Origin: Spirochaetia bacterium
Lineage (GTDB): Bacteria; Spirochaetota; Leptospiria; Turneriellales; JAOUOS01
Reading direction: 5' to 3'
DNA length: 64,000 bases
NCBI GenBank assembly: GCA_029880265.1
Contig: JAOUOT010000005.1
Location: 62,001-126,000, forward strand
Shown: positions 6,299 through 20,342 of the stretch, in pieces
How positions within the stretch are numbered: position 1 is the first letter of the stretch
Layout of the letters: every line of letters begins with the position of its first letter
Made by a program: the position numbers and the translations under genes
The notes under the pieces: model-generated
What the model saw: only the letters and a program-made list of their open reading frames with translations
What the model was told of the DNA's origin: nothing
The model's database searches: none

Positions 6299-6907
6299 TT
6301 ACTCTCCCAAAAGTCTGAATACCTTTTTTGCCCATGCCTTCCATAACAAATGGGGGCGCTTTCCCGCCGGAAGTTCTTTGAAATATATAGTTTCATAAAG
6401 GGGCGTTTGCACATAATTTTGATAAAGATTAGGAAAATATCTTGTTTCTAGCATCATGCTCCCTTTTAATAAAGACGCGATTGATTTTAAAACCTTTTTT
6501 TCGTCTCTTGAAAATAAATCTTCAAATAAAATAGAGGTTTTATAAACAAAGCCTTTCATGACCAGCGGCCTTCCTTCGCTTGAATTTTCTTTTTCTATGT
6601 TCGGCACGACTTCAATTTCGCCCTTAGCCAGCATCAAATGAAATATTTCATTGAAAAAAACGGGTTGCGGGCTTCCTTCTACGTGAAGATAGGGAAGTTC
6701 GGTTATGGGTTTGCTATATTTTTGAAAATAATGACCGTCAGCGTAAAATAAATGCTTGCATAGTTTTATTCTGTCAAGTTTTTCGGGGAGTTCGTTTATG
6801 AAAAAAAGTACTGCGGCCCTAAGCTTTAAAGCCTGAGGCATTGCCGAAAAAATATCCGATGTTTTTTTTTCCTTTTCGCCGGATTCTTTGTTATTATCTA
6901 TAGACAT
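6299..6907 (-). CDS. Panacea (DUF4065)-like protein
   Basis: The protein has 202 residues. The core RIKLCKHLFYADGHYFQKYSKPI followed by a GSPQPVF segment resembles the Panacea/DUF4065 fold (SocA/GepA type), in which a short 'LqKLlYya...gkpi...GPv' block is typical. The later FSRDEKKVLKSI is in the place of that family's conserved 'fs..E..vl' segment. Panacea domains commonly act as antitoxins or as adaptor/sensor modules. No toxin-like gene flanks it, so this may be a solitary member. Its start codon shares the tetranucleotide CATG with the divergent lipB start. Function beyond the fold is not supported. Confidence 0.5.
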   Translation of the reverse strand: MSIDNNKESGEKEKKTSDIFSAMPQALKLRAAVLFFINELPEKLDRIKLCKHLFYADGHYFQKYSKPITELPYLHVEGSPQPVFFNEIFHLMLAKGEIEVVPNIEKENSSEGRPLVMKGFVYKTSILFEDLFSRDEKKVLKSIASLLKGSMMLETRYFPNLYQNYVQTPLYETIYFKELPAGKRPHLLWKAWAKKVFRLLGE

Positions 6908-8006
6908 GAACTTTACTTATCGGTATTTGGGAACTGTAGATTATAATGAATCATTAAACCTCATGGAAGAAAAAATTCTTACCGCGGCAAATGAAAATAC
7001 ATGTTGTTTTTTTGGCCTACAACACCCTGAAATCTATACACAGGGAATCAAAACGCAAAAAGAGCATATACTGTCATCAAAAATAAATATAGTCTCGGCG
7101 AGAAGAGGCGGCTCTATAACTCTGCATAATCCCGGACAATTGATTTTATATACGATAATACCCTTAAAGTACATTACAACCGGCCTTGAAACATATATTC
7201 GATATTTAGAGTCTGTCATGATTGAGGTTTTGTTTCAAATGAATATTAACGCTTTTTGCATACCCGAACATAGCGGCGTCTGGACAAACAAAGGCAAAAT
7301 CGGTTTTGTCGGCATAGGCGTTAAAAAAAAGACGGTATTTCACGGTATCTCGCTGAACATAAATAACGATTTAAGCGGCTACAAAAAAATTATTAGCTGC
7401 GGATTGCCTTTGCCCGTTACGAAACTCTCTGAACTTAATGATATATATGGCAAAAAAATAAATATTTCTGAAGATATCTTTGAACGAATTTCAAGAAAGA
7501 TGAGCCGCCTTCTTCAAACCAGACTTATGCCTACCGTTAAAATGACTTTAAAATCGCATTTGCAATATTATGAAAAGTATTTTAGAAGCTCGTCTTTGTC
7601 TTTAAAAATTGGCATGCTTTATTTTAACTGCCAAAAATACTGGCATGCGCATGAAGTATGGGAATTTTTCTGGCGACTCTATAAAAATACCGAATATGGA
7701 AGATTTCAAATGGGGCTAATACAGCTTTCTTCGGGCTTATATAAATTAAACGAAAAAATAAATATTATTGGAAGCTTAAGCCAGATTAAAAAAGCCAGAG
7801 AAAAGCTTTATGATAACCAATATACGAATAAAGCGCTATACTCGAGCGATTCAGATAAAAATATCATTGAATATATTGACTTATTGATTTCAAGAATTGA
7901 GCGGCTTAATATTACAGAGAACACAAAAAGTTCAAAAGAAATTGCAAAAAAAATATTTTCACCGTATCTCATTGTCTTAAAAAGCGATTATGAGTCTATT
8001 ATATGA
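6906..8006 (+). CDS. lipB: octanoyltransferase LipB fused to a DUF309 domain
   Basis: LipB moves octanoate from acyl carrier protein to lipoyl domains, the first step of lipoate synthesis. The N-terminal half has all hallmarks: RRGGS at 67-70, HNPGQ at 74-78, the catalytic Lys in NKGKIG (K131), FHG at 145-147 and the catalytic Cys in SCGLP (C165). Residues from about 225 form a DUF309 domain (YFNCQKYWHAHEVWEFFW, then MGLIQLSSGLYKL), a small helical family of unknown function normally found alone. The 366-residue length, against roughly 210 for LipB alone, confirms a fusion. The start overlaps that of the divergent Panacea-like gene. The stop overlaps the next gene by 17 nt, so the two are probably coupled. 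lipA is not in the window. Confidence 0.88.
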   Translation: MNFTYRYLGTVDYNESLNLMEEKILTAANENTCCFFGLQHPEIYTQGIKTQKEHILSSKINIVSARRGGSITLHNPGQLILYTIIPLKYITTGLETYIRYLESVMIEVLFQMNINAFCIPEHSGVWTNKGKIGFVGIGVKKKTVFHGISLNINNDLSGYKKIISCGLPLPVTKLSELNDIYGKKINISEDIFERISRKMSRLLQTRLMPTVKMTLKSHLQYYEKYFRSSSLSLKIGMLYFNCQKYWHAHEVWEFFWRLYKNTEYGRFQMGLIQLSSGLYKLNEKINIIGSLSQIKKAREKLYDNQYTNKALYSSDSDKNIIEYIDLLISRIERLNITENTKSSKEIAKKIFSPYLIVLKSDYESII

Positions 8007-8643
8007 AGTATTGCCGGTAGGCGATTTGCAGTGCAACAGCGTTATCTTGTATGATCCCGATAGTAAAGAAGCCGTACTATTTGACCCCGGCGACGAAGCG
8101 GAAAATATCTTAAATTCGTTAAAAAGATTATCGTGCAAAATAATATCTATCGTACACACCCATGCTCATTTTGATCACGTTATGGCGACCGAAAAAATTA
8201 TAAAAGAAAATTCTGAAAAAATTCCTTTATATCTGCATCAAGAAGATAAATTTTTATGGGAGAAATTAAGCGATCAGACAGCATCTTTCGGTATGCCTTC
8301 TGATATAAAAACTCTGCCTCAAATTGATAAATGGCTCAAAGACGACGACATTATTACGATTGGCGGCGAAAAGATAAAAACAATTCATACGCCGGGGCAT
8401 AGCCCGGGGTCATGCTGTTTTTTTTACGACAATAAAGACAACCCCATTTTAATTTCGGGAGATACCGTTTTTTACGGCTCTATAGGCCGAACCGATCTCT
8501 GGGGAGGTGACATGAGCCAACTAATGAATTCTATTCACGATAAGATTATTGGCCTGCCCGACGAGACAAAAATTATTCCAGGGCACGGCCCTTCAACCAC
8601 AATAAGCGAAGAAAAAAAACATAATCCTTTTTTTGTGCGATAA
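7990..8643 (+). CDS. MBL-fold hydrolase, glyoxalase II-like
   Basis: This is a metallo-beta-lactamase fold hydrolase of 217 residues. The zinc-binding motif HTHAHFDH spans residues 56-63. Further metal ligands sit in TPGHSPGS, SGDTVF and IPGHGPST. This set fits the YcbL/glyoxalase II-like branch, which hydrolyses thioesters such as S-lactoylglutathione or related persulfides. The C-terminal glutathione-binding domain of true glyoxalase II is absent. It overlaps lipB by 17 nt and lies 2 nt before the ATP-grasp fusion, so the three genes look like one operon. The physiological substrate cannot be read from the sequence. Confidence 0.85.
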   Translation: MSLLYEVLPVGDLQCNSVILYDPDSKEAVLFDPGDEAENILNSLKRLSCKIISIVHTHAHFDHVMATEKIIKENSEKIPLYLHQEDKFLWEKLSDQTASFGMPSDIKTLPQIDKWLKDDDIITIGGEKIKTIHTPGHSPGSCCFFYDNKDNPILISGDTVFYGSIGRTDLWGGDMSQLMNSIHDKIIGLPDETKIIPGHGPSTTISEEKKHNPFFVR

Positions 8644-8645
8644 TC

Positions 8646-10940
8646 TTGAATATGCCGGCCCATAAAAATATTGCGGTTATTATCGGGGCGGGTTTATTGC
8701 AGGTTAATCTTATAAAAGAAGCCAAAAAAAGATATAAAGTCATCGTTATCGATCAAAACAATAAAGCCCCCGGAGCGCGTTTAGCCGACATTTTTTTTTT
8801 AATTTCAACAAGAGATACATCCGCCATAATTAACTCTCTTAAGCCTTTTAAAAAAGAAATCGCCTTATGCGCAGTATCGGGAACCGATATGACGCCTACA
8901 GTGGCCGCCGTTAATGAAGAATTTAATTTGCCGGGAATAAATAAAAAACAAAGTCTTGTGCTTTCAAACAAGGGTAAAATGCGGCATTTTTGCTTAAAAA
9001 ATAATATAGATCAGCCCAATTTTATCGTTACCAAAAAAAAAGAAGAAGCCTACCAGTGGGCCAAAAATAGTTCGCACCCCCATGGGTTTGTCATAAAGCC
9101 TACTCAAAATATGGGAGCAAGAGGCGTTATGCTTCTTCGGTCTGTTAATGACTTATCTTTTGCGTTTGAATATGCGGCCTTTTATTCGCATGAAAAAGAA
9201 ATCATTCTCGAAGAATATTTACCGGCAGACGAATATTCGGTAGACGCCCTTGTTTTCGAAGGAAAATCTTTCGTTACCGGCTTTGCCGATCGCGTTATTG
9301 AAATCAAAGAAAACCGCTATTTTATAGAAACCGGTCATACAATGCCTTCGCGAGCCGGCAAAAAAATATGGGACGCCGTAAACATCTGTATGCAAAATTT
9401 TGCCGACTCGCTTTCAAAGTTATCGAAACGACCCTATCACGGCGCCCTAAAGGCCGATCTTAGGCTTTACAATAATAAAATTTATATAGGCGAAATGGCC
9501 GGTCGTTTATCGGGCGGATACATGAGCACCCATACATATCCCTTTGCGTCGGGCAATAATTTAATGAGCGCTTATCTTGATATTTTAGAAAATAAAGTTC
9601 CCTCATTTATTAAAAAGAATAAAAATAACGCCTACAAAAAAGTCTGCATAGAAAGAGCCATAGTATCTCCCGTAGGCAGGCTTGAAAAATTTGACATGGG
9701 CCCGTCTATAATTTCAAAAGATGAAAATAAATTAAAAAAGAAATTTGTTCACTACAAGAAAAAAGATCTTATTTTTCCTTTAAAAAACAACATAGGAAAG
9801 TTAGCGAATTTTATCATTACTTCGAAAACGCGCGATAGCGCCGAAAAATTCTGGAAAAACATAAATAAAAATATTAAATACAGCGTGACATTGCCGATCT
9901 TTGAAAATAAAGCAATAAGGCAAGAAGCCAGAAAGAAATTTAATAAAAAATTCTGCAAAGTTTGCTGCGTTTGCAACGGAATAAATTGCGCCTCGTCGGT
10001 ACCCGGCATGGGAGGTTTAAAAGACGGTAGTTTGTTTAAAAAAAATATTGAAAGCTTTAATCGCATAAAAATAATCGAAAAGAAACCCGTAAAAAATATA
10101 CGCAAAGAAAAAATTAATCTTTCGTGCGAAATGTTTGGCCAGACTTTTTCGGCCCCTGTATTTTGCGCCCCTATAACCGGCGCCGTAACAAATTTAGGAG
10201 GATGCATCGCCGAATGGGATTTAGGAATAGAAATTGCCGAAGGAGCCCTGTTATCTAATGTACTGCCTTTTTTCGGCGACGGCGCCTCTGAAGACAAATA
10301 CCATATATCATTAAGCGTCATAGAGCAAACAAAAGCGGGATTGCCCGTATTTAAACCGAGAAAAAATAATAACGATATTATAAAAAGAATAAAAGAAGCC
10401 GAAAAAATAAACTCTCTGGCATGGGGAATCGATATTGACGCCGTAAAACTAAAAACTCTTGAAATAAAACATATTGAAACTTCAAAAAAGAATCTTGCCG
10501 ATCTGAAAATTCTCGCTAAATCGTCTTCTCTGCCGTTTGTCGTTAAAGGAATTTCTTCAAAAAAAGAAGCCGATATGGCGGCAGATTCTGGCGCATATGC
10601 CCTGGTTATCGGCAACCACGGCGGCAGAGTCAGCAATTTACTGCCCGATACAGTAAGCCTTGTTGAAGAGTTGGCTTTTTACATAAGGCAAAAACACCCC
10701 GATATAAAAATTCTCGCCGACGGAGGGGTTCGTTCAGGCGGCGATATTTTTAAACTGCTTGCTCTAGGCGCAAACGCCGTACTGATAGGCCGCCCCGTCG
10801 CGATAGCCGCCGTAGGCTTAGGAAGAATCGGCGTTCATTCACTATTGCAAAACTATATTTCTCAATTAACAGAAGCAATGAAAAAAACCGGGGTTTCTGA
10901 CGTTCAACAGATTAATCGTGATCATATAAGATTGGGTTAA
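8646..10940 (+). CDS. ATP-grasp domain fused to FMN-dependent oxidoreductase
   Basis: Two enzymes are joined in 764 residues. Residues ~1-400 form an ATP-grasp ligase of the PurK/carbamoyl-phosphate-synthase-like type: VIIGAGLLQ at the N-terminus, GFVIKPTQNMGARGVML as the ATP lid, and EYLPADEYSVD. Residues ~430-764 match FMN-dependent alpha-hydroxyacid oxidase-like proteins: PVFCAPITG, LPFVVKGIS, ALVIGNHGGR, ILADGGVRSGGD and VLIGRPVA. A Cys cluster opens the second half (C437, C440, C441, C443, C448, then VPGMGG). Stand-alone FMN proteins of anaerobes carry a similar block, by my recollection. It is the last gene of the lipB operon. Substrates are unknown. The joined arrangement suggests a two-step reaction on one intermediate, which is inference. 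Confidence 0.8.
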   Translation: MNMPAHKNIAVIIGAGLLQVNLIKEAKKRYKVIVIDQNNKAPGARLADIFFLISTRDTSAIINSLKPFKKEIALCAVSGTDMTPTVAAVNEEFNLPGINKKQSLVLSNKGKMRHFCLKNNIDQPNFIVTKKKEEAYQWAKNSSHPHGFVIKPTQNMGARGVMLLRSVNDLSFAFEYAAFYSHEKEIILEEYLPADEYSVDALVFEGKSFVTGFADRVIEIKENRYFIETGHTMPSRAGKKIWDAVNICMQNFADSLSKLSKRPYHGALKADLRLYNNKIYIGEMAGRLSGGYMSTHTYPFASGNNLMSAYLDILENKVPSFIKKNKNNAYKKVCIERAIVSPVGRLEKFDMGPSIISKDENKLKKKFVHYKKKDLIFPLKNNIGKLANFIITSKTRDSAEKFWKNINKNIKYSVTLPIFENKAIRQEARKKFNKKFCKVCCVCNGINCASSVPGMGGLKDGSLFKKNIESFNRIKIIEKKPVKNIRKEKINLSCEMFGQTFSAPVFCAPITGAVTNLGGCIAEWDLGIEIAEGALLSNVLPFFGDGASEDKYHISLSVIEQTKAGLPVFKPRKNNNDIIKRIKEAEKINSLAWGIDIDAVKLKTLEIKHIETSKKNLADLKILAKSSSLPFVVKGISSKKEADMAADSGAYALVIGNHGGRVSNLLPDTVSLVEELAFYIRQKHPDIKILADGGVRSGGDIFKLLALGANAVLIGRPVAIAAVGLGRIGVHSLLQNYISQLTEAMKKTGVSDVQQINRDHIRLG

Positions 10941-11057
10941 TACCCCCAGTAGTCTCACTGTGGCGTTCGACAGGCTCACCACACGCAGCCGTGGGCCACA
11001 GAAAGTCAGAGAAAACCTCGGTAGGCTACAGGCCGCTTGGCTATGCTTAATTATCGC
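10941..11057 (+). other. GC-rich gap with inverted repeat between the FMN gene and the array tail
   Basis: The gap holds an inverted repeat CTGTGGC (10958-10964) / GCCACAG (10995-11001) around a block containing GTTCGACAGGCTCACC. It is richer in G+C than its surroundings. It could end transcription from either side or be the remnant of a dispersed repeat. No poly-T tract follows the stem, so a classical terminator is not supported. Confidence 0.4.
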
Positions 11058-11093
11058 ATTTAGAATATTAGAAATTTTTATTTAGTCTTAGAC
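11058..11093 (-). repeat. degenerate terminal CRISPR repeat
   Basis: This is the leader-distal repeat. Relative to the consensus it has C3 to T, C6 to G and G11 to T (plus-strand positions within the repeat). In crRNA sense the handle becomes TCTAATATTCTAAAT, so TCTAC can no longer pair with GTAGA. The half facing the last spacer is intact. It is therefore the decayed end of the array, and no usable crRNA should form from sequence beyond it. Confidence 0.9.
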
Positions 11094-12608
11094 GGCGTAT
11101 AAAGGACTGTTAGCGTTAAATCTACAATAGTAGAAATTTTTATTTAGTCTTAGACTTTCTGCCGCTTCAAGAGTAATATATTTATCTACAATAGTAGAAA
11201 TTTTTATTTAGTCTTAGACAAAAAATGGGAAAAAATAGTTGAAGAAAATCTACAATAGTAGAAATTTTTATTTAGTCTTAGACACGAAGCGGGCGACTGG
11301 GCTCTGTCGGATCTACAATAGTAGAAATTTTTATTTAGTCTTAGACATGAAAATGTCAGCGCGTACCAGGAAAAATCTACAATAGTAGAAATTTTTATTT
11401 AGTCTTAGACTATGAACATAGAAACACGAGACGACCTATCTACAATAGTAGAAATTTTTATTTAGTCTTAGACATTGAATACCCGTATTTTTATTTTAAA
11501 TCTACAATAGTAGAAATTTTTATTTAGTCTTAGACCCGTTTCTACGGCGGGGCAATCTCTTTTCGATCTACAATAGTAGAAATTTTTATTTAGTCTTAGA
11601 CCCTTTTAAAAATAAAACACCCTTTTGTCATCTACAATAGTAGAAATTTTTATTTAGTCTTAGACGTTTATCGAATTTGAGCGGATTGAATTATCTACAA
11701 TAGTAGAAATTTTTATTTAGTCTTAGACAGCTGTATTTATACAGAAGGTCAAGGAATCTACAATAGTAGAAATTTTTATTTAGTCTTAGACCTCTGCGCC
11801 ACCGTCTAAGATTTTATCATCTACAATAGTAGAAATTTTTATTTAGTCTTAGACTTTCAAAATGAATATCGATACCGTTCTATCTACAATAGTAGAAATT
11901 TTTATTTAGTCTTAGACGAAGAATAACCCGCCTTGCTTACGCTGATCTACAATAGTAGAAATTTTTATTTAGTCTTAGACATTATCGCGTCTTGTCTTAT
12001 TGGCCGGATCTACAATAGTAGAAATTTTTATTTAGTCTTAGACAAGTAAAACAAGTATTTTCAGGATCATATCTACAATAGTAGAAATTTTTATTTAGTC
12101 TTAGACTTTTGACGCGCTAGTCAATCGCTATTCATCTACAATAGTAGAAATTTTTATTTAGTCTTAGACATTAAATTATTAGTATCTCGTAACAAATCTA
12201 CAATAGTAGAAATTTTTATTTAGTCTTAGACCACCGAGCGCTTGTTCTTCCCAGCCTGATCTACAATAGTAGAAATTTTTATTTAGTCTTAGACATTTAC
12301 TGATTACAAAACGTCTATGCCATCTACAATAGTAGAAATTTTTATTTAGTCTTAGACCAGAAGACGAATTTAAAAGTGTGCATGTTATCTACAATAGTAG
12401 AAATTTTTATTTAGTCTTAGACTTTTTTAGTAAAAAATGCTTCGCTAGATCTACAATAGTAGAAATTTTTATTTAGTCTTAGACAAAAATGATGCGCTGA
12501 ACACCGAACGATCTACAATAGTAGAAATTTTTATTTAGTCTTAGACTACTATCCGATACCCTAGAAGGTCAAATCTACAATAGTAGAAATTTTTATTTAG
12601 TCTTAGAC

Positions 12609-12764
12609 ATTCTCTAGTTATCTTTTTGGCGTCGTCATCTACAATAGTAGAAATTTTTATTTAGTCTTAGACTTTCTTTTATCGACGTTAAGGCATTCGG
12701 ATCTACAATAGTAGAAATTTTTATTTAGTCTTAGACATTCTCTAGTTATCTTTTTGGCGTCGTC
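12609..12764 (-). repeat. duplicated spacer within the array
   Basis: The 28-nt spacers at 12609-12636 and 12737-12764 are identical (both begin ATTCTCTAGTT and end GGCGTCGTC). One different spacer (12673-12700) lies between them. Internal recombination between repeats or a second capture of the same protospacer would explain it. Confidence 0.95.
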
Positions 12765-13863
12765 ATCTACAATAGTAGAAATTTTTATTTAGTCTTAGAC
12801 TTTAATCCTATGCGCCCGCTACATCTACATCTACAATAGTAGAAATTTTTATTTAGTCTTAGACTATTATGCTGATCAAGTAAGTGCTATAAATCTACAA
12901 TAGTAGAAATTTTTATTTAGTCTTAGACTTTCTTTATATCATTATACTTTGCGGTATCTACAATAGTAGAAATTTTTATTTAGTCTTAGACATATGAACA
13001 CAGATACCCTGAGTATGATCTACAATAGTAGAAATTTTTATTTAGTCTTAGACGATACGGTGCAAATAGGGCGATAAATATCTACAATAGTAGAAATTTT
13101 TATTTAGTCTTAGACATAGGTCCCCTAATGGCTCTAGTCGATCTACAATAGTAGAAATTTTTATTTAGTCTTAGACTACTCCTTGACGCCAGTCACGTCT
13201 TATCTACAATAGTAGAAATTTTTATTTAGTCTTAGACCATTTCAGTTACAATTATGGCAAGAAAATCTACAATAGTAGAAATTTTTATTTAGTCTTAGAC
13301 TTTTATCAATATAATATCGATGCAAAATCTACAATAGTAGAAATTTTTATTTAGTCTTAGACGACAATCAGAGAGGCTCTTATAATATATCTACAATAGT
13401 AGAAATTTTTATTTAGTCTTAGACCACAAGACGCGTCGGATCAAATTATCATCTACAATAGTAGAAATTTTTATTTAGTCTTAGACTCCCTTTCTACCAT
13501 TATACAATGCCCCGATCTACAATAGTAGAAATTTTTATTTAGTCTTAGACAATATGCGCCGCTTCAGTACGTGTCAATCTACAATAGTAGAAATTTTTAT
13601 TTAGTCTTAGACTCTTTGTATCTTAAGCCGCACGGTACATCTACAATAGTAGAAATTTTTATTTAGTCTTAGACATAATATTAGAAATAGAAAAATATCA
13701 AATCTACAATAGTAGAAATTTTTATTTAGTCTTAGACTATATGACACATCCGTTAAGTTTATTATCTACAATAGTAGAAATTTTTATTTAGTCTTAGACT
13801 CGTATGTCCATGCGTATAAATAACCATATCTACAATAGTAGAAATTTTTATTTAGTCTTAGAC

Positions 13864-14039
13864 CCGTTTTTGAGTTGTCAAAGAACAAATATTGCCAAAA
13901 ACATTAAAAAACAGGCTAAAATCAACAAATTTACAATGCGCTTTAACCAAATTTCTATATTTTTTTATTAAAAAATCCATAGACACATCGGTTTGCATAT
14001 CACAGGAAAAATCTCTGTTTTCGCTTTGTCAATACTTAT
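13864..14039 (-). promoter_or_regulatory. CRISPR leader
   Basis: This AT-rich 176-bp non-coding segment lies between the cas2 stop and the first intact repeat, on the side from which the array is read. This is the expected position for leader, array promoter and adaptation signals. On the minus strand TTGACA occurs at 14032-14027 and again at 13881-13876, directly before the first repeat, but neither has a convincing -10 at normal spacing. No terminator separates cas2 from the array, so read-through from the cas operon is possible. Confidence 0.75.
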
Positions 14040-14312
14040 TTATTCGAAAATAACTAAATCACTTTCTTCATTAATTGCATAGCCAAATCTATGAATTTCT
14101 TTATGGTTCAAGTCAAATATTATAACACTATCGGCTTTTGTAAATTTTTTTTCAAAATCGTTTCTTATCTCTGCCATAATATTTTTTAATATTCTTTCTG
14201 AATTTTCAATTTCATATACAGAAAACTGTAATCGGCGCCCATACTTTTTTAAGTATCTGGAAAATTTGGTTCTTAACTTATCGTTTGTTATGTCATAACT
14301 TATTATCAACAT
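14040..14312 (-). CDS. cas2: CRISPR-associated endoribonuclease-fold Cas2
   Basis: Cas2 forms the dimer at the centre of the Cas1-Cas2 integrase that inserts new spacers. The 90-residue protein begins MLIISYDITNDK, the usual Cas2 beta-strand with its conserved Asp. It continues with KYGRRLQFSVYEIE, a typical second block, and has the compact ferredoxin-like length. A TTG at 14327 would overlap cas1; the ATG at 14312 gives the standard N-terminus and leaves an 11-nt gap after the cas1 stop. It is the last cas gene before the leader. Confidence 0.93.
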   Translation of the reverse strand: MLIISYDITNDKLRTKFSRYLKKYGRRLQFSVYEIENSERILKNIMAEIRNDFEKKFTKADSVIIFDLNHKEIHRFGYAINEESDLVIFE

Positions 14313-14323
14313 GATTCTACAAA

Positions 14324-15298
14324 TCAATTAGAAATTGAAAATATAGGATATTCTCTTATGTCTTTGTCTTGAAAAAAACATCGATAAAATTTTTGTATAA
14401 ATATAAATATTTCTTCTTTATGGTCTAATAAATCATGAAATAATGAATCTGTATAATGTCTACTTTTATTCTTTCTTAAAACATAAATATTTTTTAAAAG
14501 CTTGAAATCTTCATCTTTATATTTTTTTAAATTAAAACCTTTTCGTATATTTTTATCAATTATGCATCTGAAAGGTTCTACAAAGTCACAAACAAGAGAT
14601 TTTCTTTGATAAAAAAGGCGATGATAAAAACCTTTATAAACATCAAAACCGTATAACCTTAAATTAGCCTCGATAAAATTAAATAAAAATGTATAACCAA
14701 TATCCATTAAAGTATTTATTGGATCTATTTTAGTTCGCGGTTTTCTTGATTGCCAACCATGTTCAGAAAAATACGCTTTAAAATATATTTTACTCGCATT
14801 GCCTTCTTTTCCCAATAATTTTGAATTAACCCCATTCTCATCTGAACCCAAACCATATAATATGTCAGAAATTCTTTCTATTGCATGAGAAATTTCACTA
14901 TTCTTGTTTCTTAAATATTTTAAATTATTTACTTGATTTGAAATTTTTAAACGTACAAAATACAAAGATAAATTAAAATTATCATTTTGTAGGTACTGCT
15001 TTTCTTTTAATAACGTATTGCCTTCAGAGTATGCGCCCATGTATGAGTACGGCTTGAAATTATCTTTTAAGAATATCAATGAAAAACCATACTTTGAAGA
15101 TTTTTCTAAAAGATGGCTTGTGATCGTAATAGACCCAATTACGATCACAGCGAATATTTTAATACATGGCATTTGGTTTTTTATTTTCCCCGTATCTTTT
15201 TCTTCGAAAACAAGATTTTCATTTGAAAAACGAATTTTATCTTCTTTAGAAAAAATAAAAACTATACTCTTATGCTGAAAATCCTTTAAACTAAGCAT
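14324..15298 (-). CDS. cas1: CRISPR-associated integrase Cas1
   Basis: Cas1 is the metal-dependent integrase of CRISPR adaptation. The 324-residue protein has the metal ligands expected of the family: E165 in LLGKEGNASKIYF, H226 in GFYHRLFY, and D238/E241 in CDFVEPFR. DPINTLMDIGYTFLFN corresponds to the conserved 'NP.N..L..GY' helix. The N-terminal beta domain (residues 1-90) is present. The gene overlaps cas4 by 13 nt at its start and lies 11 nt before cas2. The locus order cas12a-cas4-cas1-cas2 is the usual type V-A arrangement, and the gene appears intact. Confidence 0.96.
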   Translation of the reverse strand: MLSLKDFQHKSIVFIFSKEDKIRFSNENLVFEEKDTGKIKNQMPCIKIFAVIVIGSITITSHLLEKSSKYGFSLIFLKDNFKPYSYMGAYSEGNTLLKEKQYLQNDNFNLSLYFVRLKISNQVNNLKYLRNKNSEISHAIERISDILYGLGSDENGVNSKLLGKEGNASKIYFKAYFSEHGWQSRKPRTKIDPINTLMDIGYTFLFNFIEANLRLYGFDVYKGFYHRLFYQRKSLVCDFVEPFRCIIDKNIRKGFNLKKYKDEDFKLLKNIYVLRKNKSRHYTDSLFHDLLDHKEEIFIFIQKFYRCFFQDKDIREYPIFSISN

Positions 15299-15855
15299 GT
15301 TTCTATACTCAAATTATAATCACACAAGCCATTATAAATACATTGTTTACATTTTTCTTTATTTGCTTTAAATTCATTACGAAGATTATACGATTTGATT
15401 TCCTCAATTACATTTTCAAATTCTTGTTTTTCTTTTTTAGACGGTATGTGAATATGATATCTTTTGTTATCTGATAGAGAATGGAATACAAGTTTTTGAA
15501 TGTCAAAACCCATTTCAGTCATACAATAATATTGAGCGTACATTTGATATCTATACCCGTCATAAATTTTTATTATCTTGCGTTTTCGTTCTATCAATAT
15601 TTTATTATCGCTGTCATATATATCTATTTTTCCAAAAATATTATATCGTTCTGAATATACTTCCATGTTTGTTATAATATTTTTCTTTGTTGAAAATTTA
15701 TTTTCTTCAATGACTTTATGGGCAATTCTACCCTTCGTTTGGGCTTCATTGTGGTAATTTTTTTTAGAATAATTGCCGTAAATATTGTGAAAATAAATCG
15801 AACGCGGGCAGAAAATAAAATCGTTCAAATATGAAATAAGAATATAAGATTCCAT
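15286..15855 (-). CDS. cas4: CRISPR-associated exonuclease Cas4
   Basis: Cas4 is a RecB-family nuclease with an iron-sulfur cluster that trims prespacers and selects those next to a PAM. The four cluster cysteines are visible as C16 (FIFCPRSIYF) and C169, C172 and C178 (CKQCIYNGLC). The nuclease core has GRIAHKVIE, GKIDIYD, the IERKRK motif and RYQMYAQYY, the QxxxY motif. The length of 189 residues is normal. It starts 21 nt after the cas12a stop and overlaps cas1 by 13 nt, so the adaptation genes are translationally linked. Confidence 0.93.
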   Translation of the reverse strand: MESYILISYLNDFIFCPRSIYFHNIYGNYSKKNYHNEAQTKGRIAHKVIEENKFSTKKNIITNMEVYSERYNIFGKIDIYDSDNKILIERKRKIIKIYDGYRYQMYAQYYCMTEMGFDIQKLVFHSLSDNKRYHIHIPSKKEKQEFENVIEEIKSYNLRNEFKANKEKCKQCIYNGLCDYNLSIETCLV

Positions 15856-15876
15856 AACATATATTCTACTATTTTT

Positions 15877-18800
15877 TTATTTCATCTTTTCTATTTGTAA
15901 TTTCACTACATCTTGCTTTTGAGCGTAATTTTGCCAGTCTTCTTTGGTTACGGTAAAACTTTTTATAAATTTAATGAATTTTTCTGCAAGAGGCGAAAGT
16001 TTTTTATTCTCATATAAAGAAATAACCTCAGGAACTTCTCTGCCGACAATAAGACACCATTCTTCTAATAGCGGTTTTAGCAATGTTTCGTCTTTATATT
16101 TTTTCAGCTCGGTATTATAATTTATAATTTTATTCTTGTCTAAAATCCCATGAAGTTTTTGACGAAGTAAATTCTTATGCAGTATAATTATGCCTTTTCT
16201 GGCAATATTATACGCGCCGTTAGCGTCGCCGTTTTTGGGCAAAATGCTCTCGCTTTCTCTGAGATTTTTACTGTTAAAAAACGGTTCAACCGGAGAAGAT
16301 ATAAAATCATTTTCATCTTTGCCTTTTTCAATGTCGGGGTCGGTAACTCGAAGATTTAATATAAGAGTAAAATAATAATGTAATGATTTTATAACAGAAT
16401 CATCGACTTTCTTTAGCAGAGGCAATAAATTTTCTTCAACTGTATATTCAATATTCGCTTTTTGAAATAATGAAATAACTTCTTCATTCACATTGAAAAA
16501 AATATTTTCTTTTTTATTTTTATCGAACCTTGAACGTTCTACACAACTGCATACCTTCCAAATCGTGTTTGACGGCAAATTGTCAATATCGCCGCTGTAA
16601 AGTTTTCTTAAATCATAAATAAACTCAAAGTACTTTCCGTTATATTTTATGCTCTCAAATTTTTGGAAAAAATCTCTTGTTTTTAACTTGTCATACTGGT
16701 GGTATATATTCTGCATATAACCTGTTACAGGATCGACCTTTGAAGTATAACCGGCTGTTGTATAAAAAAGAATGCCCGATTGTTTGCCGAGTTTTTCAAA
16801 ACTTTCAAACTGCCCTGTTAACTGCCACGCATTCAAATAGTGCCCAGGTTTGCCAAATTCTTTTTCTTTAAAAACAAGATAATTTAATTTTTCAATTAAA
16901 GCGCGTTCAAATTTCTGGTAAACCTGTTTTTCAACCTTAAAACGGCCCCTTTTGAAACCGGCATTTAAATCTTCAAGAACAACAATCGCATTATTATCAA
17001 TAATAAGTCTCGCGAGCTTATGAACAATCTGAGATAAGTAGCCCGATTTTAATTCTTTTATGTTTTCAATTGTCTGCCAGCTTTTTCGTGCCGCGTCGCG
17101 GCCTTTTTCTTTTTTATCAAGAATTTCATGATAAGGAGTTTCTATTTCGCCGCCCGTATATTTAGATTTTACAGTATTTAAGCTGCCCTGTTCTAAAATC
17201 TCGCCTTTTTGGTTTATAAGAGAATAGTAAAGCAAATGTTTTTCGCCCCTGTCAATGCCAAGAATGTTTACTTTTTCATTATCTCTTAAAAAGGATTGAA
17301 TTTCAGAATTTAAATAAGAATTACCGTCAGTTTTGAAATTTAAAGTAATGGGGCAGTGAAAGAAATATTTATTCTCTGTAAAACGCTTATCTTTTATCAA
17401 ATCGATATCAAATTTACTAGTCTTTTTACTCGCTTTTACATTTTTATTCGTAAGCGCTTCTCCTTTTTTATGAACAACTCTATTCTTCTCTGCTATCGAC
17501 GCCGGTCTGTAAAAAAGCTCTGCTTCGCCGTTTAATTTAGCGACGACATTTTTAAGATTTTTATCGTCAAAAAGCATGCGCCAATATGTAGTATGTAAAT
17601 TTTCTTTGCCCTTTGAGTGCATCGAAAAATCTTTATTGTATATTTGAAAAAGATAGAGCTTGCCTTCATCGACAAGTTTATCGATATATGCTGATTTTAT
17701 ATTATCAAAGCTTATTTTATAGCCTTGAGATTCAACTTCATGAAAAAATTGAGAAATGTCTTCATACTTTTCAGTATCAGTAAATTTAAAGTTAAAGTTT
17801 TGCCATTCTGGGTGTTTTTGTAGAGCATTTTTATAAAACTCAACTAAAGTATGACATTCTTTAAGAATGAAATTTTTTGACGATTTCTTAAAGGTTTCAT
17901 TTTCTTTGATTTTCAAAATTAGATTTGAAGGGTTAAAGAATTCAATATTTTTATCGCTAAAAAAAACCTTAGGCAGCATTTTATTGGGACCTGGCAGCAA
18001 CTTATAGTTCACTTTACGATAAGAAGGCTCGTTTTTTGCCGCCAATATTTCTTTTTGCAAATCTTTCTTTCTTTGCATTATTTTAGAATTCGGGTTTTCA
18101 TTGCCATTTGAATTAATTTGATAATCAAAAGAAAAGTTTTTACCTTGGGGCATAATGCCAAGATAGTAGAATTTATCTTTGATGAATAATAAAGATTTAT
18201 TTGCAGTTTCTTTATTTATATCCCAACCCGCAGCCAATGTGCTGTTTTCAAAATTGAGTTTTATTTTATCTATTGAGTACGGTTTTTTGGTCAGATAGTT
18301 TCTTGCTTTATTATACAAATCTAAAACCGAAAACTGCAAAAGCAGATTTTGAAGTCTATTTTGAAAATCTGTGTCTATTTCTTGTTCTTTGGCGAGGTCT
18401 TTGCTTCTTATGATAAAACTGTCAATAAACCTGTGTAATTCAAGGGCAGAATCTAAAAATTCTTTTATTGAATTTTTTGCCTCGTCTTTTTTTTCAAAAG
18501 AATTTTCTTTAAATATTTTTTCAATAGCGCTGTTTTCTGAATTCTTCTTTATCGTATTTTTCTCAGAATGATTTTTATTTTCACACTCAAGCAATGCTTT
18601 AAGCTTATGCTCAATATAAGTTGTAATGCTTATATCTTTGGGCCATGTTTCTTTTAACGCTTCAGGATCGTTTTCAATACAAATCAATATCATTTTATTA
18701 ATATCTTTGAAACTTAGAGTTTTTGCTTTTTTTAATTTAAGTTTTTCGGCTTTAGGCAAGGCATTGCCATTTTCCTGTTTTTTATTTTCAATTAAGTTAA

Positions 18801-20214
18801 AGTAAATATTATCAATCGCGTTAAAGCCGCCAAACAAATCAACAGAAATTTTTCTTATGAATTCGCGCGAAAGATAAAATAAGTCAGGGTTTGATTTTAT
18901 TTCACTGAATAAATATTTAAATTCTTCATAAACCTGTTCTATAAAATTTCTCTTTTTTTGTGCGCCCGTTTCTATCAGGTTTCGATCTTTCTTGCTGAGA
19001 ATATCTTCATAAAAATATTTTAACTCTCTAATTAAATCTTCATCGTTTTCAAAAGCGTCTATGAAATTTCTCTCTGAATCGCTTAGAATCTGCTTATATA
19101 ATGGTTGAAGGGCAGAAAAATCTCGTTTCTCGCCATGAAGCTGCTGCCTTGTAAGATTAATAATTTCGTTAATGCCTTGAATTTTTTCTTTGCCTGCCTG
19201 CGCCGGCAAGCCGCCAAGAGTTATATTGTAAAGATCAATACCTTCTTGTGAAATAAAATGCAGAAAAGATTCGGGATTAAATGTATTTTCGATTGAAATA
19301 AGCGCGTTTCTGTTTTTAAGCTCTTTTTGCAGACGTTTCAATTTATCATTTACAGAAAAATTGGCTTCTTTTAACTTTTTAACGTTTTCGGTTTTTTGAA
19401 TATTCGCCTGAAATTTTTGCCATCTTTGTATATTAGCGAAAAAGAAATCGAGATTTTCTTCAAGAATACGATGAGCAATGGAGGTTTTTTTAAGTTTTTT
19501 ATTATCGCCTTCGGTATCATAAATGTTTTTTCGGTTTTGATTAAAGCCGCTAAAATAGGTTGTAAAACCTGTAAATGAATTTACTACTTCAGCAAGCTCT
19601 TTTTTTAAATACTCTGTATTGTCGTCTTTAGTTATATCTATCGCATTTTTTTCAAGAAGCCATCTTAATATAGAAAACGAATCGCTGTTTTCATGAATAA
19701 GGCTTACGCCATTTTTTTTAATTGAAAATTTTTCAGATTCGATATTTTTCATCTCTTTTTGAGAGAGATTCTTCCAATCATTCGCGGCTTGTTCAAAAGC
19801 TTCTTTTAATTTCTTAGAAAATTTCAATTTTTCTTCTTGTAGAAGATCTTTTTTATTATCATTTAGCGCGTCAGAATTCGCGTTATCACGATTGAGCCAT
19901 AGCGAGAATAAGTTCTCTATATCATCAGATTTAATTATTTTTGAAAGTATTTCATAATCAAGAGCTTTACTTATGAAAAGCTGGTGCATTTTATTCATGG
20001 CTTTTTTCAAGACTTTATAATTATCAGCTAAATCTTTATCTTTACCGCTGGTGATATTATGACCGTTTTCCCAATGACTTTCAATAATATTGTGTTTTTT
20101 AATGTTTTCTTCTGTCTTGCCGACAGGCTTTAATTCAAATCGCAGTGTTTTTTGTACTTTATACCTTTGGGTAAAATTGTCCCATATACATTTATTATTT
20201 TTTTTGTTATTCAT
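15877..20214 (-). CDS. cas12a: CRISPR effector nuclease Cas12a (Cpf1), long form
   Basis: Cas12a processes its own pre-crRNA and cuts target DNA with a single RuvC site. The N-terminus has TQRYKVQKTLRFELKPVGKT. The wedge region includes LPKVFFSDKN, YLFQIYNKDFS and KLNGEAELFYRPAS. RuvC-I is GIDRGEKH (D988), the bridge helix is near ARKSWQTIENIKEL, RuvC-II is VLEDLNAGFKRGRF (E1081), and RuvC-III is GDANGAYNIARKG (D1330). The Nuc lobe has WKVCSCVERSRF and DFISSPV. All three catalytic acids are present. At 1445 residues it is longer than As (1307), Fn (1300) or Lb (1228). Extra sequence lies before RuvC-I, including a Lys/Asn-rich stretch near 540-575, and between RuvC-III and the C-terminal TKEDWQNYAQ. 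ATG 20214 follows GGGGGTT and a promoter; the 20286 start lies upstream of that promoter. Confidence 0.97.
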   Translation of the reverse strand: MNNKKNNKCIWDNFTQRYKVQKTLRFELKPVGKTEENIKKHNIIESHWENGHNITSGKDKDLADNYKVLKKAMNKMHQLFISKALDYEILSKIIKSDDIENLFSLWLNRDNANSDALNDNKKDLLQEEKLKFSKKLKEAFEQAANDWKNLSQKEMKNIESEKFSIKKNGVSLIHENSDSFSILRWLLEKNAIDITKDDNTEYLKKELAEVVNSFTGFTTYFSGFNQNRKNIYDTEGDNKKLKKTSIAHRILEENLDFFFANIQRWQKFQANIQKTENVKKLKEANFSVNDKLKRLQKELKNRNALISIENTFNPESFLHFISQEGIDLYNITLGGLPAQAGKEKIQGINEIINLTRQQLHGEKRDFSALQPLYKQILSDSERNFIDAFENDEDLIRELKYFYEDILSKKDRNLIETGAQKKRNFIEQVYEEFKYLFSEIKSNPDLFYLSREFIRKISVDLFGGFNAIDNIYFNLIENKKQENGNALPKAEKLKLKKAKTLSFKDINKMILICIENDPEALKETWPKDISITTYIEHKLKALLECENKNHSEKNTIKKNSENSAIEKIFKENSFEKKDEAKNSIKEFLDSALELHRFIDSFIIRSKDLAKEQEIDTDFQNRLQNLLLQFSVLDLYNKARNYLTKKPYSIDKIKLNFENSTLAAGWDINKETANKSLLFIKDKFYYLGIMPQGKNFSFDYQINSNGNENPNSKIMQRKKDLQKEILAAKNEPSYRKVNYKLLPGPNKMLPKVFFSDKNIEFFNPSNLILKIKENETFKKSSKNFILKECHTLVEFYKNALQKHPEWQNFNFKFTDTEKYEDISQFFHEVESQGYKISFDNIKSAYIDKLVDEGKLYLFQIYNKDFSMHSKGKENLHTTYWRMLFDDKNLKNVVAKLNGEAELFYRPASIAEKNRVVHKKGEALTNKNVKASKKTSKFDIDLIKDKRFTENKYFFHCPITLNFKTDGNSYLNSEIQSFLRDNEKVNILGIDRGEKHLLYYSLINQKGEILEQGSLNTVKSKYTGGEIETPYHEILDKKEKGRDAARKSWQTIENIKELKSGYLSQIVHKLARLIIDNNAIVVLEDLNAGFKRGRFKVEKQVYQKFERALIEKLNYLVFKEKEFGKPGHYLNAWQLTGQFESFEKLGKQSGILFYTTAGYTSKVDPVTGYMQNIYHQYDKLKTRDFFQKFESIKYNGKYFEFIYDLRKLYSGDIDNLPSNTIWKVCSCVERSRFDKNKKENIFFNVNEEVISLFQKANIEYTVEENLLPLLKKVDDSVIKSLHYYFTLILNLRVTDPDIEKGKDENDFISSPVEPFFNSKNLRESESILPKNGDANGAYNIARKGIIILHKNLLRQKLHGILDKNKIINYNTELKKYKDETLLKPLLEEWCLIVGREVPEVISLYENKKLSPLAEKFIKFIKSFTVTKEDWQNYAQKQDVVKLQIEKMK

Positions 20215-20244
20215 AATAACCCCCATGTTTCTGTATCTTGCATA

Positions 20245-20270
20245 TTTATATATTAAACCCATTTTGTCAA
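20245..20270 (-). promoter_or_regulatory. candidate promoter of the cas operon
   Basis: On the minus strand TTGACA (20270-20265) is a perfect -35 box. An A/T-rich -10 region follows, with TATAAA at 20250-20245 at a short 14-nt spacing; overlapping TAAATA gives 16 nt. Transcription would start near 20237, about 23 nt before the ATG at 20214. This supports the shorter Cas12a start. Identified by motif only. Confidence 0.45.
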
Positions 20271-20342
20271 ATCTAAACAGCCGCAAGTGCGCACAATTAA
20301 CGTCTTTCGCATAATATTATTATACAAAACATGAAATAGTTT

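Follow-up and report, generated by a model that had tools for sequence, protein, structure and literature searches.

In the pseudaminic acid pathway N7 stems from an amino group that is normally acetylated by PseH. The flagellin glycan of Treponema denticola, reportedly described by Kurniyati et al. in 2017, is said to be a mono-acetylated nonulosonic acid with a 2-methoxy-4,5,6-trihydroxyhexanoyl group on N7. The computed mass of a mono-N-acetyl pseudaminic acid residue (274.116) plus this group is 450.185, and the hydroxyl groups of the acyl chain so described are placed as they would be in 2-keto-3-deoxygluconate after reduction at C2 and O-methylation. Flagellins of T. denticola bear a glycan of 450.2 Da, and the Treponema flagellin glycan is reportedly indispensable both for motility and for the assembly of filaments (PMC9481697). 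Among the papers searched, none assigns genes to the unusual acyl group of this glycan.

In Shewanella oneidensis, sfmABCDE is a flagellin-modification operon in which SfmE (SO_3265) is an ATP-grasp_4 protein (PMC3765264). The flagellin glycan of Shewanella comprises a mono-N-acetyl nonulosonic acid of 274 Da and a methylatable moiety of 236–264 Da, and loss of SfmE shifts the flagellin mass less than loss of SfmA to SfmD (PMC3765264). When we searched the literature for effects of gene loss on the flagellin glycan, this SfmE deletion was the only case found. According to its published description, SfmE resembles the protein described below as an ATP-grasp_4 ligase linked both to a methyltransferase and to a flagellin whose mono-N-acetyl nonulosonic acid bears a further moiety that can be methylated; SfmE is without an FMN domain. 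The acid of the Shewanella system is apparently made by a thiamine-diphosphate (TPP) enzyme and a FabG-like reductase, unlike what we consider here for an FMN protein. A putative D-alanine ligase in the peptidylamido-glycan locus of Clostridium difficile type B flagellin (PMC5207245) embodies an analogous idea and was set aside as too remote.

The fusion protein and its two halves

We analyzed a stretch of 64,000 nucleotides from a Spirochaetia bacterium (the window). The fusion gene and its parts are located as follows:

8646..10940, + strand: fusion gene, ATP-grasp ligase plus FMN hydroxyacid-dehydrogenase-like protein (open reading frame, Pfam, orthologues, alignment A1, model mf4dff6e09d22)
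8646..9896, + strand: ATP-grasp half of the L-amino-acid-ligase type, residues 1–417 (Pfam ATP-grasp_4, fold match, conserved residues)
9897..10937, + strand: FMN-dependent hydroxyacid-dehydrogenase-like half, residues 418–764 (FMN_dh at E = 2.7e-47, fold match)
9954..9989, + strand: Cys cluster C437-X2-C440-X2-C443-X4-C448, a possible Fe-S or metal site (invariant columns)
10545..10547, + strand: K634, aligned with the flavin-contacting Lys of glycolate oxidase (alignment)
10617..10628, + strand: H658-G-G-R661, catalytic His/Arg motif NHGGR (invariant in 33 of 33 fusions)

The reading frame comprises 764 codons from a TTG at position 8646 and contains no internal stops; an in-frame ATG two codons further on (position 8652) is an equally possible start. 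The sequence-only reading had described a single polypeptide of 764 residues with an ATP-grasp and an FMN hydroxyacid-oxidase-like domain, and the reading frame, the Pfam matches and the fold matches agree with it. Conserved residues confirmed the two domain assignments as well. The best AlphaFold2 model has a mean pLDDT of 91.4 and a pTM of 0.91.

A match to the fusion query was found in 61 of 61 genomes in our set of relatives, mostly as full-length fusions. In most of 60 relatives the full-length query corresponded to a single, stop-free reading frame, with identities of 58% within the same family and 34–46% elsewhere. Full-length fusions occurred in dozens of families of a phylum-wide sample, and both active sites were intact in all 33 aligned fusions. 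Genome sizes and gene content (FlaA, spiro-SPASM, small genomes in which the system is missing) indicate that the phylum is Spirochaetota. A single scan of genome contigs with the full protein as query returned only distant FMN_dh matches from Pelagibacterales. The fusion is real, old and conserved; its parts are ordinary.

The ATP-grasp half has the three-domain ATP-grasp fold in common with the L-amino acid ligases BL00235 (PDB-entry 3vot), BacD (3vmm) and RizA as well as with 4dim. A fold search of the PDB gave TMt values of 0.85 for 3vot and 0.79 for 4dim. Residues 147–295 matched Pfam ATP-grasp_4 (E = 8e-9). LAL_C2 had no Pfam match in the window protein and was clearly matched in orthologues (E = 1e-9 to 1e-17). 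K109, K151, the loop from N155 to G160 (with A158 nearly invariant), D271, E283 and R287 are invariant in the 33 fusions; the fold, the ATP lysines, the glycine-rich loop and the Mg-binding acidic residues of the L-amino-acid-ligase superfamily are all present. In contrast to the L-amino acid ligases, this half carries a conserved signature of its own (EIAxRLSGG), is fused to FMN_dh and occurs in the context of amino-sugar and glycan synthesis instead of dipeptide synthesis.

Pfam FMN_dh (PF01070) covers residues 613–762 of the window protein together with a weaker N-terminal stretch. The PDB folds matching this half are mandelate, glycolate and long-chain hydroxyacid oxidases (TMt 0.77–0.83), and the TIM-barrel fold and the catalytic core of Lys, Asp and HxxR are shared with glycolate, lactate and mandelate oxidases. 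The flavin and catalytic core residues of PF01070 are represented by K634, H658, R661 and D598. K634, H658, R661 and D596/D598 are invariant in the 33 aligned fusions, and NHGGR aligns with SNHGAR of glycolate and lactate oxidases.

Two features set this half apart from the FMN-dependent α-hydroxyacid oxidases. In place of their usual N-terminus it opens with the motif CX2CX2CX4C, whose residues C437, C440, C443 and C448 are invariant in the 33 fusions, with the exact spacing in 32 of them; each of the 14 stand-alone FMN homologues checked has the cluster as well. A five-Cys cluster from C437 to C448 had been described for the window protein; four of these residues hold and C441 varies. The lineages bearing the FMN/Cys4 protein are presumably mostly anaerobic. 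On the substrate side, the Tyr and the second Arg of glycolate oxidase are absent from the sequence alignment, in which an unconserved loop reading KPR stands opposite LYVYKDR. The substrate of the FMN half therefore probably differs, and identity as an ordinary hydroxyacid oxidase appears less likely from this alignment.

Individual lineages show decay of one half. In f14-like fusions, among them locus L051 (7842–9992), the fused FMN half is without its motifs, and an intact, separate FMN gene is present in genome G055 (L056). The catalytic His of the fused FMN half is replaced by Arg in G050 (f9-like, L050). In G063 (f21-like, L079) the fused ATP-grasp half is decayed and a separate ATP-grasp copy is present.

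Gene neighbourhoods and co-occurrence

Two genes precede the fusion gene in the window:

6888..8006, + strand: lipB-DUF309 fusion that opens the local operon (a neighbour only in close relatives)
7990..8643, + strand: metallo-β-lactamase-fold (glyoxalase II-like) hydrolase, upstream of the fusion (Pfam, neighbourhood)

All three genes share one strand, and neighbouring genes overlap or lie a few bases apart. The operon noted in the sequence-only reading is thus real in the window, but it is conserved only in close relatives. Among the 40 loci examined, lipB-DUF309 adjoins the fusion in four (L034, L039, L040, L068) in addition to the window. A fifth (L065) has lipB without an evident DUF309 near the fusion, and the loci with lipB next to the fusion nearly all belong to the same order. 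The glyoxalase II-like gene adjoins the fusion only in L034 and L036. A search for a conserved lipB/glyoxalase neighbourhood across the family found it in close relatives only. In the window genome the fusion is unlinked to flagellin-glycan genes; this genome has spiro-SPASM at C22 with the methyltransferase orthologue a few kb away, five matches to PF01973 and a PseI/NeuB-like match (E = 1e-66).

In treponeme-like and other families the ATP-grasp and FMN halves are encoded by separate genes. The split ATP-grasp gene lies in an operon with the order spiro-SPASM (TIGR04321), a gene whose product matches no known family, CTP_transf_3, PseG-like/Methyltransf_23, ATP-grasp, Amidase_3, GerMN and FlaA, which is complete or nearly so in 15 genomes from many families. 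Its products include a radical-SAM spiro-SPASM protein, a CMP-sugar synthetase (cytidylyltransferase), an N-acetylmuramoyl amidase and the flagellar sheath protein FlaA. G097 is a single-contig genome of T. pallidum size (1,139,633 bp), which we assume to be T. pallidum. Here the FMN gene is part of an equivalent operon with spiro-SPASM, cytidylyltransferase/PseG/methyltransferase and a HAD phosphatase, and the ATP-grasp gene is located elsewhere. Each half is therefore independently found in the same operon. Among the fusion loci, the methyltransferase orthologue lies directly upstream in L043, and PseG-like/methyltransferase is nearby in L053. Many split-gene genomes are without an FMN homologue, and the FMN step is therefore dispensable or replaceable.

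The stand-alone ATP-grasp proteins (L091, L095, L054) carry a conserved C-terminal extension of about 150 residues (...GxFWxALLKGGYQGAxWYxDT...) with no Pfam match, which occupies the place of the FMN half in the fusions. A protein of about 330 residues ('c3', L130:2663–3658), without a Pfam or NCBIfam match, is usually encoded between spiro-SPASM and the cytidylyltransferase. Throughout the phylum spiro-SPASM (TIGR04321) co-occurs and co-localises with flagellin-glycan genes, which suggests a role of this radical-SAM family in the flagellin-glycan pathway. To our knowledge the family has no assigned function. Two T. denticola-like genomes have an in-frame TGA that resembled a selenocysteine codon and turned out to be the upstream stop.

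The phylogenetic profile covered 393 genomes, with presence defined as E < 1e-20 and unlisted negatives taken as the complement, which agreed with the stated counts. ATP-grasp and spiro-SPASM agreed in 372 genomes (295 with both, 77 with neither, 21 discordant; Fisher 4e-58, relatedness ignored). For ATP-grasp and PF01973, the family that includes Maf, agreement reached 381 genomes (305 with both, 76 with neither, 12 discordant; Fisher 9e-67, again ignoring relatedness). The absences fall in f38 and f49, in a single genus of f45 and in part of f50, and sister genera in f45 and f50 keep all of the genes; several co-losses are therefore likely. Fragmented assemblies make up most of the discordant genomes. 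G359 and G386 (f49, genus g151) have ATP-grasp without Maf or spiro-SPASM and look like true exceptions; their ATP-grasp homologues are possibly paralogues for another amino sugar.

Outside the phylum, plasmid-borne ATP-grasp homologues were found in pseudaminic-acid clusters of three organisms. The cluster of Solidesulfovibrio contains pseF, methyltransferases, FabG, a transketolase pair, ATP-grasp, pseB and pseC, that of Aureibacter pseB, pseC, pseF, ATP-grasp, a PseG-like gene, an acyltransferase and pseI, and that of Sinorhizobium RAC02 PseG, ATP-grasp, an epimerase and PseI. Further plasmid homologues adjoin DegT-type or WecE/RffA aminotransferases together with sugar transferases, and one S. 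meliloti homologue has a different context. Our analysis points to the acylation of amino sugars in bacterial surface glycans as a common task of ATP-grasp ligases. A transketolase pair adjoins ATP-grasp in the amino-sugar loci L208 and L224, on plasmids of Solidesulfovibrio and Staphylococcus epidermidis; it resembles the sfm-encoded TPP enzyme of Shewanella.

Proposed reaction and alternative explanations

Synteny of the split orthologues, co-occurrence with Maf and spiro-SPASM and homologues in pse clusters elsewhere link the protein to the flagellin nonulosonic-acid system (NulO synthesis, CMP activation, Maf). Because of these links and the intact active sites we assign the fusion to flagellin-glycan synthesis, and the earlier statement that no known pathway matches was too pessimistic. 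A role of the protein in this synthesis is very likely. We estimate a probability of roughly 65% that the fusion acts as a bifunctional enzyme in the N-acylation of the pseudaminic-type nonulosonic acid of flagellin. The ATP-grasp half probably ligates an amide to the amino sugar, and KDG-type chemistry is a tentative assignment for the FMN half. In the literature searched, neither the combination of domains nor its assignment to flagellin-glycan acylation appears to have been described.

We propose the following reaction sequence; which acid is used, in which direction it reacts, what donates the electrons and that acylation takes place on the sugar nucleotide are inferred. The FMN/Cys4 half would interconvert a 2-oxo and a 2-hydroxy acid, in the simplest case reducing a KDG-like 2-keto-3-deoxy sugar acid to 2,4,5,6-tetrahydroxyhexanoate and taking up the electrons via the Cys cluster. 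Known hydroxyacid oxidases work in the oxidising direction, which counts against a reductive FMN half. The co-conserved methyltransferase would then O-methylate the acid at C2. As a carboxylate-amine ligase, the ATP-grasp half would activate the hydroxylated carboxylic acid with ATP and form an amide between this acid and the 4-amino nitrogen of the precursor sugar nucleotide, the future N7. The decorated sugar would be CMP-activated and placed on flagellin by Maf, and the fusion would keep the FMN and ligase steps together.

The ATP-grasp half would thereby replace PseH at the same step. PseH has a GNAT fold and uses acetyl-CoA, whereas the substrates of the ATP-grasp half would be ATP and a free acid. 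PseH scored above the curated cut-off in one of 169 genomes; this is weak evidence for its absence, because spirochaete PseI-like proteins mostly miss the PseI cut-off too. In its complete form the proposal is of an undescribed ligase/flavoenzyme that reduces a KDG-type 2-keto acid via a Cys4 (possibly Fe-S)/FMN relay and amidates it onto a pseudaminic-acid precursor, as the missing step of the spirochaete/Treponema flagellin glycan, replacing PseH phylum-wide; this we put forward as a possibility that is open to considerable doubt. If true, it would supply the missing step of a glycan pathway that Treponema-like cells need for motility. The analysis provides specific, testable gene assignments for the ATP-grasp ligase, the FMN/Cys4 oxidoreductase, the methyltransferase and the radical-SAM protein spiro-SPASM. 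The gene set so assigned is kept in nearly every Maf-bearing genome sampled, including the T. pallidum-sized one.

The most serious alternative agrees that the ATP-grasp half is a flagellin amino-sugar ligase and takes the FMN half to be unrelated to the acyl chain, serving the anaerobic metabolism of 2-hydroxyacids in general, or chiefly a structural or regulatory purpose, and being fused for stability. It would account for the FMN_dh/Cys4 homologues of Clostridia, which stand alone and distant from glycan genes, as well as for the genomes that are missing the FMN gene and the lineages with a degenerate fused FMN half. We nevertheless consider it unlikely, as the FMN active site and the four Cys residues are invariant in the 33 fusions, the FMN gene of G097 sits in the flagellin-glycan operon, and in G055, the genome checked, the degenerate fused half comes with a separate intact FMN gene. 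A quite improbable explanation is that the ATP-grasp half is a ligase of the dipeptide (L-amino acid) type with a peptide substrate; it might then serve cell-wall turnover, for instance, alongside its operon neighbours, the amidase and GerMN. Its nearest folds are indeed the L-amino acid ligases 3vot and BacD, the orthologues carry LAL_C2 and the amidase gene adjoins ATP-grasp in the split operon; yet f38 genomes, which still need a cell wall, are without the gene, Maf and spiro-SPASM together, and the genes around the homologues elsewhere concern pseudaminic acid and amino sugars, not peptides.

Even less probable is an enzyme that acts with the lipB-DUF309 and glyoxalase II-like products on a thioester or a lipoyl/glyoxal-type intermediate. 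The common strand and tight spacing in the window and the few loci that repeat one or both neighbours speak for it, but the arrangement is essentially confined to one order and the neighbours vary freely elsewhere, while the split orthologues lie in the flagellin-glycan operon and the profile tracks Maf and spiro-SPASM. The local operon misled the earlier functional reading: of the thioester or dipeptide-like intermediate suggested there, an amide-type intermediate comes close, and the lipB/glyoxalase context is unsupported. The chance that the fusion is an assembly artefact or a pseudogene is negligible. We found no evidence in its favour, and the orthologues refute it: the homologue search recovered intact full-length fusions throughout the phylum from assemblies made independently, some of them consisting of one or a few contigs, and the two-domain AlphaFold2 model is of high confidence. 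Our preferred reading is N-acylation of the flagellin nonulosonic acid.

Other genes near the fusion

The genes mnmG, mnmA, gidB and parAB are recurrent neighbours of the fusion and were discarded as local synteny rather than function. In the window a SocA/Panacea-domain gene (6299–6907) is divergent from lipB-DUF309. The pair of SocA and lipB-DUF309 is kept in L034, L039, L040 and L068, and L037 has SocA alone near the fusion.

A Type V-A CRISPR-Cas locus (11050–20286) lies directly downstream of the fusion. Its Cas proteins were identified by eye from the translations:

14040–14327: open reading frame consistent with cas2
14324–15298: open reading frame consistent with cas1
15286–15855: open reading frame consistent with cas4
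15877–20286: Cas12a-like open reading frame of 1469 amino acids

The CRISPR array consists of about 45 repeats of ATCTACAATAGTAGAAATTTTTATTTAGTCTTAGAC at a spacing of 62–66, and one spacer region occurs twice (12626 and 12754).
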